A stretch of DNA of 58,312 nt, from IMG/VR virus record IMGVR_UViG_3300042475_000814, positions 1-58,312 of that record. One strand, written 5' to 3'. Shown piece by piece: positions 53,201-57,369 of this stretch (within the stretch, counting starts at the first letter, position 1; each line of letters begins with the position of its first letter). The DNA comes from a virus. The notes under the pieces were generated by a model that was given only the letters and a program-made list of their open reading frames with translations, was not told the origin of the DNA and made no database searches. The position numbers were made by a program, and so were the translations under genes.

Positions 53201-53518
53201 ATGGCCGGTGTTTCCCCTACCCAGCGCAGTCTAAAGATTATGCGAGAGCGTGGTTATCATTGTGAGATAGTAGAAAAATGGAATAGTTTTGTAAAAATAC
53301 GACAAGACCTCTTCGGATTCATTGATGTTCTATGCCTTGGCCAGAACGAGATTATTGGTGTTCAGACCACGACTAGCGCACATATGGCCGAGCGGATTCA
53401 TAAAATTAAAGATCACGCAAACTATCAGGCGGTAGTAGATTCGGGCATCAAGATACTTGTGCATGGCTGGGTAAAACGCACGAATGGAAGGTGGGAATGT
53501 CGTGAAGAATTGATATAA
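53201..53518 (+). CDS. Small PD-(D/E)XK-like nuclease, 105 aa
   Basis: The start at 53201 (MAGVSPTQRSLKIMRERGY) has AAAGGAA upstream. IRQDLFGFIDVLCLGQNEII, GVQTTTSAHMAERIHKI matches a small phage nuclease family in which D-I-D and the xVQxT segment replace the usual ExK. Probably acts on branched or single-stranded DNA, or in packaging. Followed by a terminator at 53541. Confidence 0.7.
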   Translation: MAGVSPTQRSLKIMRERGYHCEIVEKWNSFVKIRQDLFGFIDVLCLGQNEIIGVQTTTSAHMAERIHKIKDHANYQAVVDSGIKILVHGWVKRTNGRWECREELI

Positions 53519-53540
53519 TTGATTGGTGAGAAGTGATTTA

Positions 53541-53568
53541 GGGGGCTGAAATATGTCCCCTTTTTTTT
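53541..53568 (+). terminator. Rho-independent terminator after the small nuclease
   Basis: GGGGGC (53541-53546) pairs with GTCCCC (53555-53560, one G.U), followed by eight T residues. It separates the small nuclease gene from the non-coding region. Confidence 0.85.
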
Positions 53569-53620: not shown

Positions 53621-53725
53621 TGTTAGCACTCCTCCGTGCGAACCCTAATGCCCTAGACTAATCCACTAGGGCATTTTCTCTGTTAGCCTAACACTTCCTT
53701 ACAGCAAGCTAACACTTCATTAACA
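53621..53725 (+). promoter_or_regulatory. Cluster of TGTTAG/CTAACA boxes
   Basis: TGTTAG at 53621-53626 and 53681-53686, CTAACA at 53688-53693 and 53709-53714, and TTAACA at 53720-53725. TGTTAGCCTAACA (53681-53693) is a perfect inverted repeat and CTAACACTTC is directly repeated at 21-base spacing (53688 and 53709). This looks like an operator array just upstream of the promoter at 53747. Confidence 0.5.
53647..53679 (+). terminator. Second terminator-like hairpin
   Basis: AATGCCCTA (53647-53655) and TAGGGCATT (53667-53675) form a perfect 9-bp stem with an 11-base loop, followed by a short T-rich stretch. With the terminator at 53541 it insulates the RNA region. Confidence 0.65.
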
Positions 53726-53746: not shown

Positions 53747-53755
53747 TGTTATAGT
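53747..53755 (+). promoter_or_regulatory. Extended -10 promoter of the structured RNA
   Basis: TGTTATAGT is an extended -10 element whose expected start (about 53761-53763) coincides with the first helix strand of the RNA. A weak TTAACA lies at 53720-53725, too far for a normal -35, so an activator or the boxes upstream may help. Confidence 0.45.
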
Positions 53756-53760
53756 TTAAC

Positions 53761-54197
53761 TATTGCGACCTGAGAACCGCTAAGAGTCCCTTGATAGGTA
53801 TATTGATAGGGCGTTTTACTAAGTTACTGATAGTGCTTACCTAAACGTCCTAGTTCTCAGCAATATATCTTTTAAGGGATTTTTTTATTGGTCGTAATCG
53901 CAGAACGGCGATACAGATGGTTATTCCCAGCTACCTTACATGGGAACTTGCTAATGACCGAGCAAGTAAATGAAACAGGTTGCGCTTGTAGTGTATACAC
54001 GGGGCGGCGCAGTGGAACTTAAATGGGTATCCACACGAACAGAACATGATAAAGGTGATGCGAAGCTAGTTTGGCCGACTAGAGTTGACAGGCGTTCTGG
54101 AAGATAAACATTACCTCAGGGAGCAGTGGGAGCAATCCGGCTGAAGGTGGTTAAAGACTATGTTGAGTTACAAGGCATATCACCATCTCGCCCCGTG
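53761..54197 (+). ncRNA. Large structured non-coding RNA (candidate, about 440 nt)
   Basis: No credible gene fits this GC-richer stretch, yet it has many exact pairings in order. 5' domain: TATTG/CAATA, CTGAGAAC/GTTCTCAG (53770-53777 with 53853-53860), GGGCGTTT/AAACGTCC inside it. Middle: GTAATCGC/GCGATAC (53894/53908), TTCCCA/TGGGAA (53924/53941), ACTTGCT/AGCAAGT (53946/53961). 3' domain closed by CACGGGGCG/CGCCCCGTG (53998-54006 with 54189-54197), containing GTGGA/TCCAC (54012/54030), CAGAAC/GTTCTG (54040/54094), CTAGT/ACTAG (54066/54078) and ACCTCAG/CTGAAGGT (54113/54141). TGCGC/GCGCA (53981/54007) crosses the closing helix as a pseudoknot. It resembles large ornate phage RNAs (GOLLD, ROOL) in style only. 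The 3' end is not marked by a T run. Confidence 0.7.
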
Positions 54198-54220: not shown

Positions 54221-54264
54221 ATGACAAAGTATAGATTCATGTGCTATAATAAGTGTGGTATAAT
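54221..54264 (+). promoter_or_regulatory. Promoter(s) of the ParB-like/helicase/primase operon
   Basis: ATGACA (54221-54226), 18-base spacer and a perfect TATAAT (54245-54250) with extended -10 TG. A second TGGTATAAT (TATAAT at 54259-54264) follows 14 bases later. The ribosome site CGGAGAG and ATG of the ParB-like gene lie 34 bases beyond. Confidence 0.75.
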
Positions 54265-54297: not shown

Positions 54298-55083
54298 ATG
54301 AAGATAGAAGATATAGTAATTGACGCTAAGACGCAGATGCGTGAAATCAGCGAAGACGTAGTAACTGACTACACTGAGAAGCTATTAGATGGAGTTAAAT
54401 TCCCGCCCGTGGAAGTGTTTACAGACGGGAAAATCACTTGGTTAGTGGACGGGTTTCAAAGACTGTTAGCGCACCAACGGGCAAAGTTAGCACACATTGA
54501 AGCAGTCACTCATAAAGGAACGCTACGAGACGCTCAGTTTTATGCGTTAGGAGTAAATGATAAGCACGGCAAGCCTAGAACGATTAAGGATAAAACAAAT
54601 GCGGTATTAACCGCCTTAGAAGATATGGAATGGGGGCTATTAAGCAATAGAGAAATAGCCAAGGCGTGTAATGTATCCCATGTATTTGTGGCAAAAGTTA
54701 AGAAATCCTTAGAAAAACCATCAAAAAAGAAGCCAAAAAAGGCACAAAAAAAGCCCGCAACGCTCGTAGTTAAAGGCTCTGAGTCTGAAGTGGTAACGTT
54801 ACCACTTGAGTATGATCCTAGGGAAGATCAGATTACTGAACTGTCTACAACCAATCGGCAATTATCAGAAGAGAATACTAAGTTAAAGGATAAAGACTTA
54901 GTTGTTAACGAAGATAAGGCGGTGGTGCTGGACGAAATTACCGGTTTGCGTAATCAGATTAAAGGGCTGGAGGCAGAGTTAAAGGCGGTTAAAAACTCCC
55001 GTGATCAGTTCCAAAATAAGAATCTAGAGTTAATAAAACAGGTAAAATATTTAGAGAATAAGATTAAGAAGTCCGGATTGTAA
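54298..55083 (+). CDS. ParB-like DNA-binding protein
   Basis: The start at 54298 (MKIEDIVIDAKTQMREISED) has CGGAGAG upstream. Residues 1-85 are a ParB/Srx domain (VTDYTEKLLDGVKFPPVEVF, LVDGFQRLLAHQRA); residues about 120-145 an HTH (LLSNREIAKACNVSHVFVAK), as in ParB. A Lys/Ala/Pro linker follows, then a C-terminal coiled coil (EITGLRNQIKGLEAELKAVK). No ParA is present. A palindromic site lies within the gene. It may act as a partition-like, replication or regulatory factor; such proteins are common in phages. 262 aa. Confidence 0.8.
   Translation: MKIEDIVIDAKTQMREISEDVVTDYTEKLLDGVKFPPVEVFTDGKITWLVDGFQRLLAHQRAKLAHIEAVTHKGTLRDAQFYALGVNDKHGKPRTIKDKTNAVLTALEDMEWGLLSNREIAKACNVSHVFVAKVKKSLEKPSKKKPKKAQKKPATLVVKGSESEVVTLPLEYDPREDQITELSTTNRQLSEENTKLKDKDLVVNEDKAVVLDEITGLRNQIKGLEAELKAVKNSRDQFQNKNLELIKQVKYLENKIKKSGL
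54788..54807. repeat. 20-bp palindrome, copy 3 (perfect)
   Basis: AAGTGGTAACGTTACCACTT, identical to the copy at 40690. It lies in the linker of the ParB-like gene between HTH and coiled coil. ParB-type proteins often bind palindromic sites of this size, and parS sites commonly lie within or next to the gene. Confidence 0.8.
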
Positions 55084-55123
55084 TACCGAAGTTGGGCGGT
55101 TTCCCATCAGGAACGGAGAGAGT

Positions 55124-56602
55124 ATGTTGCAGTTGCGAGAGCATCAGTTGGAAGTTGTTGAGAAGTTAATAGAGGGATTTAAAGAACACCGTTGTCAAAT
55201 ACTATATGCTCCTACCGGATTCGGTAAGACAGAAGTGGCGATGGCTATGATGTTAGAAGTATCTAAGCAGTTTAAAAAGACCGCTATGATACTTGATAGG
55301 GTTGTTCTCGTTGAGCAAACCAGTCTACGCCTAGGTAAGTATCAAATCCCGCACGGGGTTATGCAAGCAAATCATTGGCGTAAACAACCACATGAACGGA
55401 TACAAGTCTGTTCTGCCCAAACCTTAGAAAAGCGCAAGATTATTCCTGAAATGGAATTATTAATCGTGGATGAATGTCATGTCCGGCGCAAAGGAACGCT
55501 AGAGTTAATAAAGAATAACCCCAACCTAAAAGTTATAGGGCTTACTGCTACGCCTTTTACCGATGGGCTAGGGGATACATATACCAATGTGGTCGGTGCG
55601 TCCCCTACTTCTGAGTTAATACAAAAGGGCTGGCTAACTCCTTTGAAAGTCTATATTGCAAAAGAAATAGACATGACGGGCGCAAAGAAGAACTCGTTCG
55701 GTGAGTGGGCGGAAAGCGAAACCACAAGCCGAGGCATGAAGATTACAGGGGATATTATTACCGAGTGGGTTAAATTGACCTACGCAATATATGGTGGCCC
55801 CGCTAAGACTATAGTGTTCTGTTCGGGGGTTAAGCACGGCAAAGACTTAGAGGCCAAGTTTAATGAGGCGGGGTATAACTTTAAGTCTATATCTTATCGA
55901 GAGGATGACGAATACAAACGGATAACTATTGAAGACTTTGCCCGCCCTGATACAGACATTGTTGGTCTTATTGCCACAGACATTCTAACCCGTGGGTTTG
56001 ATGTAAGTGATGTAATGATAGGTGTATCTGCCCGCCCTTTTAGTAAGTCGTTCTCTAGCCATGTTCAGCAGATGGGTAGGGTTATGCGCCCGCATGAGGG
56101 TAAGGATTGGGCATATTGGCTAGATCATTCCGGTAATTATTTAAGATTCCGTAAAGAGTGGGATGAGTTATATGATGAAGGGGTTAAGGAGTTAAAAGAC
56201 GGAGCAGAGTCTACCAAAAAAGAGCCAACAGAAAAGGAAAAGAAACAATCCATATGCCCTGCTTGTAAAGGATTATGGACTTCAAGCACAGATATTTGTA
56301 ACGAATGTGGACATGTCCGTCAGTCTAAAGTAATGTTTGAATCCGTGGCTGGAGAGTTAGTCGAGTTGGACGGGGTTAGTAGACAGGCAGATACAAATGC
56401 ATCACAGTTTTACGCAGAGGTGCTTTACTATGCAAGACTACAAGGATACAAGGATGGTTGGGCAGCATACAAATATAAAGAGAAGTTCGGCATCTTCCCG
56501 TCCAGATATCTAAGTAGCATTGCGCCACAACCACCTAGTAATAAAACATTAGGTTGGATTAAATCACGCAACATAGCATATGCAAAGGCTAGACAACAAT
56601 GA
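55124..56602 (+). CDS. SF2 DNA helicase with C-terminal zinc ribbon
   Basis: Walker A APTGFGKTE (29-37), DECH (116-119), GLTATPF (139-145) and a motif VI QMGRVMRP (around 318) define an SF2 DEAD/H-box helicase of the RecG/UvsW-like phage group. Residues about 374-393 carry CPACKG ... CNECGH, a four-cysteine zinc ribbon. The final 100 residues are helical. It would unwind DNA for replication with the primase-like protein that overlaps its stop. GGAGAGAG precedes the ATG. Confidence 0.9.
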   Translation: MLQLREHQLEVVEKLIEGFKEHRCQILYAPTGFGKTEVAMAMMLEVSKQFKKTAMILDRVVLVEQTSLRLGKYQIPHGVMQANHWRKQPHERIQVCSAQTLEKRKIIPEMELLIVDECHVRRKGTLELIKNNPNLKVIGLTATPFTDGLGDTYTNVVGASPTSELIQKGWLTPLKVYIAKEIDMTGAKKNSFGEWAESETTSRGMKITGDIITEWVKLTYAIYGGPAKTIVFCSGVKHGKDLEAKFNEAGYNFKSISYREDDEYKRITIEDFARPDTDIVGLIATDILTRGFDVSDVMIGVSARPFSKSFSSHVQQMGRVMRPHEGKDWAYWLDHSGNYLRFRKEWDELYDEGVKELKDGAESTKKEPTEKEKKQSICPACKGLWTSSTDICNECGHVRQSKVMFESVAGELVELDGVSRQADTNASQFYAEVLYYARLQGYKDGWAAYKYKEKFGIFPSRYLSSIAPQPPSNKTLGWIKSRNIAYAKARQQ

Positions 56603-57369
56603 CATTCGAATCGTTTGCAAAAAAGCACGGGCTTATTATTGAAGATGTTGTAATGGATAAGTGGATGCGTGTCCCAACTCAGGACAAGCCAAACAAACGT
56701 AATGGTGCATACATATGGGATGGTAGGAATGGTGCGATCATTAACTTTGCCAAGCATGAGAATCACATAATCTATAAAGATGATGTGACTAGGTATGACC
56801 CGTTTATCCAAGAGAAGATAAGAAAATCAGAAAAAGATAAACTCGATAAACAACTCAAGGCCAAGAGGAAAGCGGTCTTTATTGTGACTAGTGCGGTGCA
56901 AGCAGAACATCCGTATTTAGAGAAAAAGGGTTTCAGTAAAGGGCTTGTATGGAATAGCCTTTTAGTCGTCCCGATGCGGATTGATGGAGACTTAGTGGGT
57001 TGCCAACTCATCACGCCTGACGGGGATAAGAAGTTTCTAACAGGGCAATTAACCAAGGGCGCATCTCTCACGATAGACAATAAGGGTAGGGATATACTCG
57101 TAGAGGGATTGGCAACGGGCTTGAGTGTCCGCCAAGTCCTCAAAGAACATAACAAGAGATATACAATTCACATTTGTTTTTCTGCATCTAATATGCTGGA
57201 GATAGCCAAGGGCAAGCATAACCCGCTAGTCATCGCAGACCATGATGAGATAGGAATAAAAACTGCCCAAAAAATCGGGCAGTATTGGCTAAGTGATACA
57301 GAGGGAGAAGACTTCAATGATGCGCACCAGCGTGGATACATAGGCAATATTATTGAACTGTTGGAGTGA
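56599..57369 (+). CDS. TOPRIM primase-like protein
   Basis: The ATG overlaps the helicase stop as ATGA. The N-terminal part (KWMRVPTQDKPNKRNGAYIW, DGRNGAIINF) resembles the DUF7146-like front of phage primase/helicase proteins. The C-terminal half is TOPRIM: ILVEGLATGLSVRQVL with the catalytic Glu, VIADHDEIGIKTAQKI with the DxD pair, then GEDFNDAHQRGY. There is no zinc finger, so it may depend on the helicase zinc ribbon. It would make primers for host polymerase. Confidence 0.85.
   Translation: MTFESFAKKHGLIIEDVVMDKWMRVPTQDKPNKRNGAYIWDGRNGAIINFAKHENHIIYKDDVTRYDPFIQEKIRKSEKDKLDKQLKAKRKAVFIVTSAVQAEHPYLEKKGFSKGLVWNSLLVVPMRIDGDLVGCQLITPDGDKKFLTGQLTKGASLTIDNKGRDILVEGLATGLSVRQVLKEHNKRYTIHICFSASNMLEIAKGKHNPLVIADHDEIGIKTAQKIGQYWLSDTEGEDFNDAHQRGYIGNIIELLE

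Follow-up and report, generated by a model that had tools for sequence, protein, structure and literature searches.

A conserved pseudoknotted RNA, probably of a new family, occupies a phage operon-leader slot shared with unrelated RNAs

GOLLD and ROOL, which occur in bacteria and phages, are large and ornate RNAs (PMC12286853). The Rfam family RF02932 (Betaproteobacteria-1), classed there as “Gene; sRNA,” is an orphan in function. The HK022 put RNA and Bacillus EAR are co-directional processive-antitermination RNAs that head phage or long operons, and leaders of the P4 immunity-region and lambda tR′ type combine a promoter-proximal terminator-like stem with an alternative long-range pairing. 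The locus described here lies in a linear IMG/VR virus record of 58,312 bases, which was analyzed whole (the window). An earlier note, made from the sequence alone, had claimed for positions 53761 to 54197 a large, highly structured noncoding RNA, either a member of the GOLLD or ROOL type or a new class.

The gene-free region runs from the end of an open reading frame (ORF) at 53518 to a gene start near 54299. The two terminators and the extended −10 promoter previously read upstream of the RNA were found, and TGnTAnnnT-like elements occupy the same relative position in homologues as this promoter, P1, does in the window. The interval 53761 to 54197 consists of two separable domains, a hairpin and U-tract domain (53761 to 53886, the 5′ module) and a conserved core (53893 to 54197). 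That the first of these is a conserved module in its own right could not be seen from the window sequence alone. Alignments revealed sequence similar to a further promoter-like site, P3, in L124, L127, and L101, which together with the window make up the window group for P3. We found no intrinsic terminator on the + strand from the RNA to the end of the operon in the window and none where the core ends, and ARAGORN called neither a tRNA nor a tmRNA for this RNA.

53540–53561, terminator-like hairpin and T-run, upstream of the RNA region
53650–53672, terminator-like hairpin GCCCTAG/CTAGGGC followed by TTTT, upstream of the RNA region, from sequence reading
53747–53755, + strand, P1, extended −10 promoter element TGTTATAGT, from the sequence and homologue alignments
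54221–54250, + strand, P3, promoter-like site ATGACA-18-TATAAT with TG before it, downstream of the RNA and upstream of the first gene
54299–57369, + strand, rightward downstream operon of three genes
First gene, operon from 54299, + strand, small protein, ParB-like by eye, no confident Pfam match
55124–56602, + strand, DEAD/ResIII helicase (Pfam)
56599–57369, + strand, Toprim-like protein, below the Pfam cutoff

A helicase query returned 80 loci, in two of which blastn detected the RNA: L002 (97%) and L054 (74% over 53899 to 54196, E = 2e-44). Pattern scans followed by profile searches added L085, L086, L087, L090, L093, L095, L124, L127, and L101, as well as a divergent trio (L092, L123, and L112) and the more distant L132, and core homologues are now known from about 15 further IMG/VR records in 9 sequence groups. 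The covariance model of the core, R1, scored 110 bits in L092, 107 in L123, 92 in L112, and 42 in L132; L125 is a weak relative (26 bits, E = 3e-7) and L126 a marginal one (E = 0.005), these two being alike only over the initial ~45 nt, where hairpins A and B lie. Membership of the R1 family was defined by a core with helices B, C, D, E, F, PK1, and PK2, all of which occur in the window, L002, L054, L085 to L087, L090, L093, L095, L101, L124, L127, and the divergent trio, and most of which occur in L132. Run against 50 phage records, R1 gave a single match in each of 12. Pattern matches such as L082, L083, L088, L089, L091, L094, L096, L098 to L100, L113, L114, L118, L122, L128 to L131, and L133 to L135 scored at chance level and were discarded; those inspected in full (L100, L128 to L131, and L133 to L135) look coding. 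Comparison of the window locus and of L054, L086, L092, L125, and L126 with cultured phages by blastn returned nothing meaningful, and an RNA pattern scan of 85k GTDB genomes gave zero matches; the helicase query hit one MAG contig in GTDB genomes. L072 (3400 to 3860) carries an attenuator-like module and a core resembling a very divergent R1 relative (11 bits), with GAACATTA.CTCAGG, a GGTGA/TCACC pairing, and terminal CCTATGG in common with the R1 family.

Ten helices, including three pseudoknots, are common to the core homologues; hairpin A (53896 to 53920) has two competing forms.

53893–54197, + strand, RNA core, conserved noncoding RNA of ~300 nt, from blastn, profile, and covariance-model comparisons
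53924–53946, + strand, hairpin B, conserved loop GCUACCUUACA, 4 pairs changed on both sides
53947–53966, + strand, hairpin C, conserved loop UAAUGACCGA, from permutation test and pair-change count
53957–53980, + strand, PK3, C-loop ACC (53957–53959) with GGU (53978–53980), suggested by RNAalifold, with an A-U to C-G change
53981–54011, + strand, hairpin K, UGCGC/GCGCA (53981–53985/54007–54011), nearly invariant
53999–54196, + strand, PK1 (X), 53999–54006 with 54189–54196, crosses K, covariation with 7 strand variants
54012–54034, + strand, hairpin D, from permutation test and pair-change count
54040–54099, + strand, helix E, 54040–54045/54094–54099, from permutation test and pair-change count
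54066–54070/54078–54082, + strand, inner hairpin F, within E, from permutation test and pair-change count
54054–54184, + strand, PK2 (Y), 54054–54059 with 54179–54184, crosses E, permutation P = 0.001
54124–54143, + strand, hairpin G, GNRA-like cap loop (GCAA), from RNAalifold and pair-change count

The pairings listed in the earlier note are present, including the perfect 9-bp helix 53998–54006/54189–54197 (CACGGGGCG/CGCCCCGTG) and the hairpin crossing it, TGCGC 53981–53985/GCGCA 54007–54011; the latter, K, lacks covariation support of its own because it is nearly invariant. A homologue collection and covariation check, of the kind that the note had proposed, yielded both-side changes, and the long helix covaries through seven sequence variants. 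We shuffled the 3′ strands of eight helices among up to nine sequence representatives, a test that leans toward the structure because the strands were picked by eye. For PK1, 71 of 72 cells were paired over 9 sequences, against 54.9 expected, and 0 of 20,000 permutations did as well, as was also the case for D and for E; the P values were 0.00015 for B, 0.0001 for C, and 0.001 for F. The strand variants of PK2 are GGTGAT/ATCACC, GGTGAA/TTCACC, and AGTGCC/GGCACA, and it is L101 and the divergent trio that support it, with zero both-side changes in the close group. In a MAFFT alignment of 11 close members, 21 of 55 pairs changed on both sides, compared with a shuffle mean of 9.9 (0 of 500 as high) and with only 3 to 4 when the core structure was slid by 1 to 3 columns; likewise, 95.9% of cells were paired versus 35 to 40% when slid. 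RNAalifold, which cannot draw pseudoknots, nevertheless recovered PK1 as well as B, D, E, F, and G, and it pointed to PK3. Several helices of the minimum-energy fold of the single sequence were rejected, among them one joining the 5′ domain to 53972–53980, whose pairing is not conserved, and GGTG/CACC within 54145–54185, the place of which PK2 takes in relatives.

As had been argued from the density of helices, the structure exceeds chance: the region folds with z = −4.9, and none of 100 dinucleotide shuffles did as well. Folding is biased to one strand (z = −4.6 on the + strand versus −0.9 on the reverse), and this bias and the G-U pairs indicate an RNA of the + strand. The core also contains long conserved unpaired stretches and loops. 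No reading frame is conserved across the homologues, stops occurring in nearly all frames; since the only open frames, those of L092 and L123, lie on different strands, there is no common ORF, in keeping with the earlier reading of no plausible gene. Inverted repeats could serve as protein sites, and a DNA repeat, an operator array, or a chance structure with no RNA function might be imagined; it is most improbable in view of the crossing helices with double-sided changes in several sequence groups, the G-U pairs, and the strand bias. That 53893 to 54197 encodes a real, conserved structured RNA is therefore well supported, and the claim of a large, highly structured noncoding RNA stands on covariation and the lack of a conserved frame.

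Rfam was searched at gathering and relaxed thresholds with the window together with some 30 related loci. A cmscan of the whole window gave 0 matches at the gathering threshold, including to GOLLD and ROOL, and at the locus neither of these nor any other Rfam 15 family matched at E ≤ 5; the covariance models of RNase P RNA, group I and II introns, HEARO, and other Rfam families were likewise unmatched. Of the two options that the earlier note had left, membership of GOLLD or ROOL thus fell, failing the covariance-model check at both thresholds, and a new class was retained. A literature search found no paper tied to the window RNA. Together, the covariation, the lack of a conserved frame, and the lack of an Rfam match support its assignment to a new family absent from Rfam.

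The 5′ module has an arrangement of its own.

53765–53780, + strand, hairpin H1 (GCG/CGC), loop CTGAGAAC at 53770–53777, complementary to 53853–53860
53783–53886, + strand, long stem S1, 53783–53805 with 53861–53882, and U-tract 53880–53886, terminator- or attenuator-like
53808–53816/53843–53851, + strand, hairpin H2, closed by S1
53853–53860, + strand, GTTCTCAG, complement of the H1 loop, just ahead of the S1 3′ strand

Modules of this type are ~125 nt long and run from an extended −10-like promoter through a small hairpin and an 18- to 25-bp stem to a U-tract, the small-hairpin loop being complementary to a segment roughly 80 to 130 nt downstream in the modules compared. The H1-type arrangement recurs with other sequences in L124, L127, L054, L085, L061, L009, L034, L019, and L072, and across phages the stem with its U-tract and the loop-to-distal pairing keep complementarity while sequences change. 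Loop and complement read CTGAGAAC/GTTCTCAG in the window and, elsewhere, GTAGAAA/TTTCTAC, GTCGAAA/TTTCGAC, TTTGGAC/GTCCAAA, TTTGGTC/GACCAAA, TTGGAAG/CTTCCAA, GTCGGAG/CTCCGAC, and GTTGCGA/TCGCAAC. A descriptor of the module gave 47 matches (some counted twice) versus 7 in shuffled sequence, and a loop complement was present in 41 of 100 S1-like long-stem U-tract hairpins versus 2 to 4 in three controls. The short linkers suggest, on geometric grounds, that the long stem and the loop-to-distal pairing would exclude each other. The two domains also occur apart: the core of L101 follows its own promoter-like site directly, without a 5′ module, and that of L123 comes immediately after an ORF.

Sister phages without the window-type core also have gene-free leaders. 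With membership set as a match of over 49.4 bits to the 120-position model, RF02932 was found in 10 of 13 sister leader loci and, when whole records were scanned, in 17 of 50; in sister phages with the same helicase, it occupies the same locus as the window RNA, the helicase-operon leader behind the same 5′ module, a genomic slot that is a feature from this analysis and lies outside the Rfam definition. The window core or a relative is present in 12 of the same 50 records, and both RNAs occur together only in that of L125, where RF02932 sits elsewhere, so that it is absent from the other 11 of the 12. It gave no match at the window locus (E ≤ 5) or in L092, L123, L112, or L132 (E ≤ 1), and R1 had no match among RF02932 loci; shared descent of the two RNAs was considered and set aside, as models in both directions gave no support. 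A 5′ module lies ahead of RF02932 in L004, L006, L009, L031, L044, and L061, and by blastn the L054 5′ domain matches RF02932-bearing leaders (L004/L006, 77%, 9e-24; L031/L044, 75%, 4e-16; also L061 and L009), which shows common descent of these 5′ domains.

A third RNA, typified by L034 (1280 to 1745), was detected by blastn (E ≤ 1e-3) in about 20 other loci and is also present in L019, L024, L027, L010, L014, L033, L012, L029, L022, and L046. It matched nothing in Rfam (L034, L019, L012, L029, and others), and an automatic fold of 11 sequences had both-side changes at 22 of 88 pairs, a count without control. The 5′ module precedes all three core types, window-type, RF02932, and third RNA, and a shared slot for exchangeable RNAs is well supported.

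L040 (3417 to 4350), L041 (2926 to 4000), and L062 (3440 to 3700) contain structured-looking gene-free leaders that are neither R1 nor RF02932, with an attenuator-like module in L040/L041. At RF02932 loci (e.g., L077, 3125 to 3241), conservation runs ~100 nt past the 120-nt Rfam model, and the RNA appears longer; loops 2 and 3 of its hairpins keep their complementarity as the sequence varies (GATCT/AGATC, GACTT/AAGTC, GTAAC/GTTAC). Acidovorax phage AP1 (OM049504.1, 11907 to 11979), a cultured phage of Paracidovorax oryzae, has an RF02932-like sequence between its primase gene and the next genes. Because AP1 has no evident 5′ module, the association of RF02932 with that module is common, not strict. 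AP1 offers a tractable experimental system for RF02932, and from this relative we would guess that the window phage has a betaproteobacterial host.

In the helicase phages, the core stands at the head of a rightward operon, on the coding strand and close upstream of an early gene. (Gene names in unannotated phages were assigned by eye except where Pfam supports them.) L132 has replication-protein-like and methyltransferase-like genes downstream and no helicase in the available stretch, and the related RNA of L126 stands before an ERF-like gene. L125 has two operons with one leader RNA each: RF02932 before an ERF-like recombination operon and the R1-related RNA, on the opposite strand, before a replication operon. 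The L124 helicase ORF, at 852 aa, is ~360 aa longer, with CGKCLGKGTPVLMFDGTIKTVEN at the Walker motif, and looks like an intein insertion.

These settings bear on two further explanations. The adjoining helicase and Toprim-like genes and the divergently oriented gene blocks nearby would suit a replication-origin transcript that forms an R-loop or primer, as ColE1 RNA II does; this is unlikely, however, as the L126 relative heads an ERF-like operon, L125 carries such leaders twice, cumulative GC skew reaches its minimum near 6 to 8 kb and shows only a local turn near 54 kb, and the pairings (G-U pairs, strand bias) suit a + strand RNA. Still less probable is a ligand-responsive riboswitch of the replication operon: the leader position and long conserved loops would fit, but because the downstream genes differ between phages and unrelated RNAs replace the core, one ligand for one pathway fits poorly.

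The coding-strand position, the varied genes, and the interchangeable unrelated RNAs suggest a generic role in cis, exerted on transcription or on the mRNA, and one RNA per operon, whatever the genes, favors it. Our main reading, to which we give a probability of roughly 0.45, is a two-module leader of an early replication operon whose core acts in cis on transcription or expression. RNA polymerase would start at P1, and the 5′ module would decide whether transcription ends at the U-tract or continues, a switch suggested by the apparent difficulty of forming the loop-to-distal pairing and the long stem together. On read-through, the core would fold on the nascent transcript and act in cis on transcription or expression of whichever early operon follows. 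Since P3 is placed after the RNA and ahead of the first gene in the window group, the operon may not depend on the leader, and because there is no + strand intrinsic terminator within the window operon, there is no obvious antitermination target; both points argue against a simple antiterminator. The settings of the L101 and L123 cores and of the RF02932-like sequence in AP1, described above, also count against this reading.

The main rival, nearly as likely, is an early noncoding RNA acting in trans: it would have its own promoter, may be processed, and would target a host machine (RNA polymerase, the ribosome, an RNase, or a defense complex), while the operon is promoted separately. P3 in the window group, the promoter-like site directly at the L101 core, the large pseudoknotted core with its long conserved unpaired stretches, and the Rfam type of RF02932 (Gene; sRNA) speak for it; the core, however, has no terminator at its 3′ end and is co-directional with and just upstream of an early gene, L125 has one RNA for each operon, and unrelated RNAs alternate at the slot. 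A broader version of the cis reading, a modular phage regulatory system, is put forward more tentatively: one conserved bistable attenuator would head early operons, and behind it any one of three or more unrelated, large pseudoknotted RNAs would do the same cis job. If true, the RNA slot would be a general one, and orphan Betaproteobacteria-1 would be explained as well.

The result is a well-supported family of large RNAs with three pseudoknots, and orphan RF02932 gains a genomic setting as one of several interchangeable RNAs behind an attenuator-like module in phage early operons. Unrelated RNAs in one slot are unusual, and their function can be tested by core swaps. RF02932 shares with the window RNA its locus, a homologous 5′ module in several sister phages, hairpins with loop-loop complementarity, and its orphan status; its hairpins and loops are different, with no detectable sequence or structure homology. 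GOLLD and ROOL, which are larger than the ~300-nt core, differ from the window RNA, which has no Rfam match and sits before early replication genes. The put and EAR RNAs resemble it as co-directional RNAs at operon heads and are candidates for something that works alike, but the window RNA is much larger, has a terminator-like module ahead, and has no terminators downstream in its operon. By its arrangement of a stem with an alternative pairing, the window leader may be likened to the attenuation leaders of the P4 and lambda tR′ type, from which it differs in the large folded RNA that follows the stem and in keeping this arrangement across unrelated cores.
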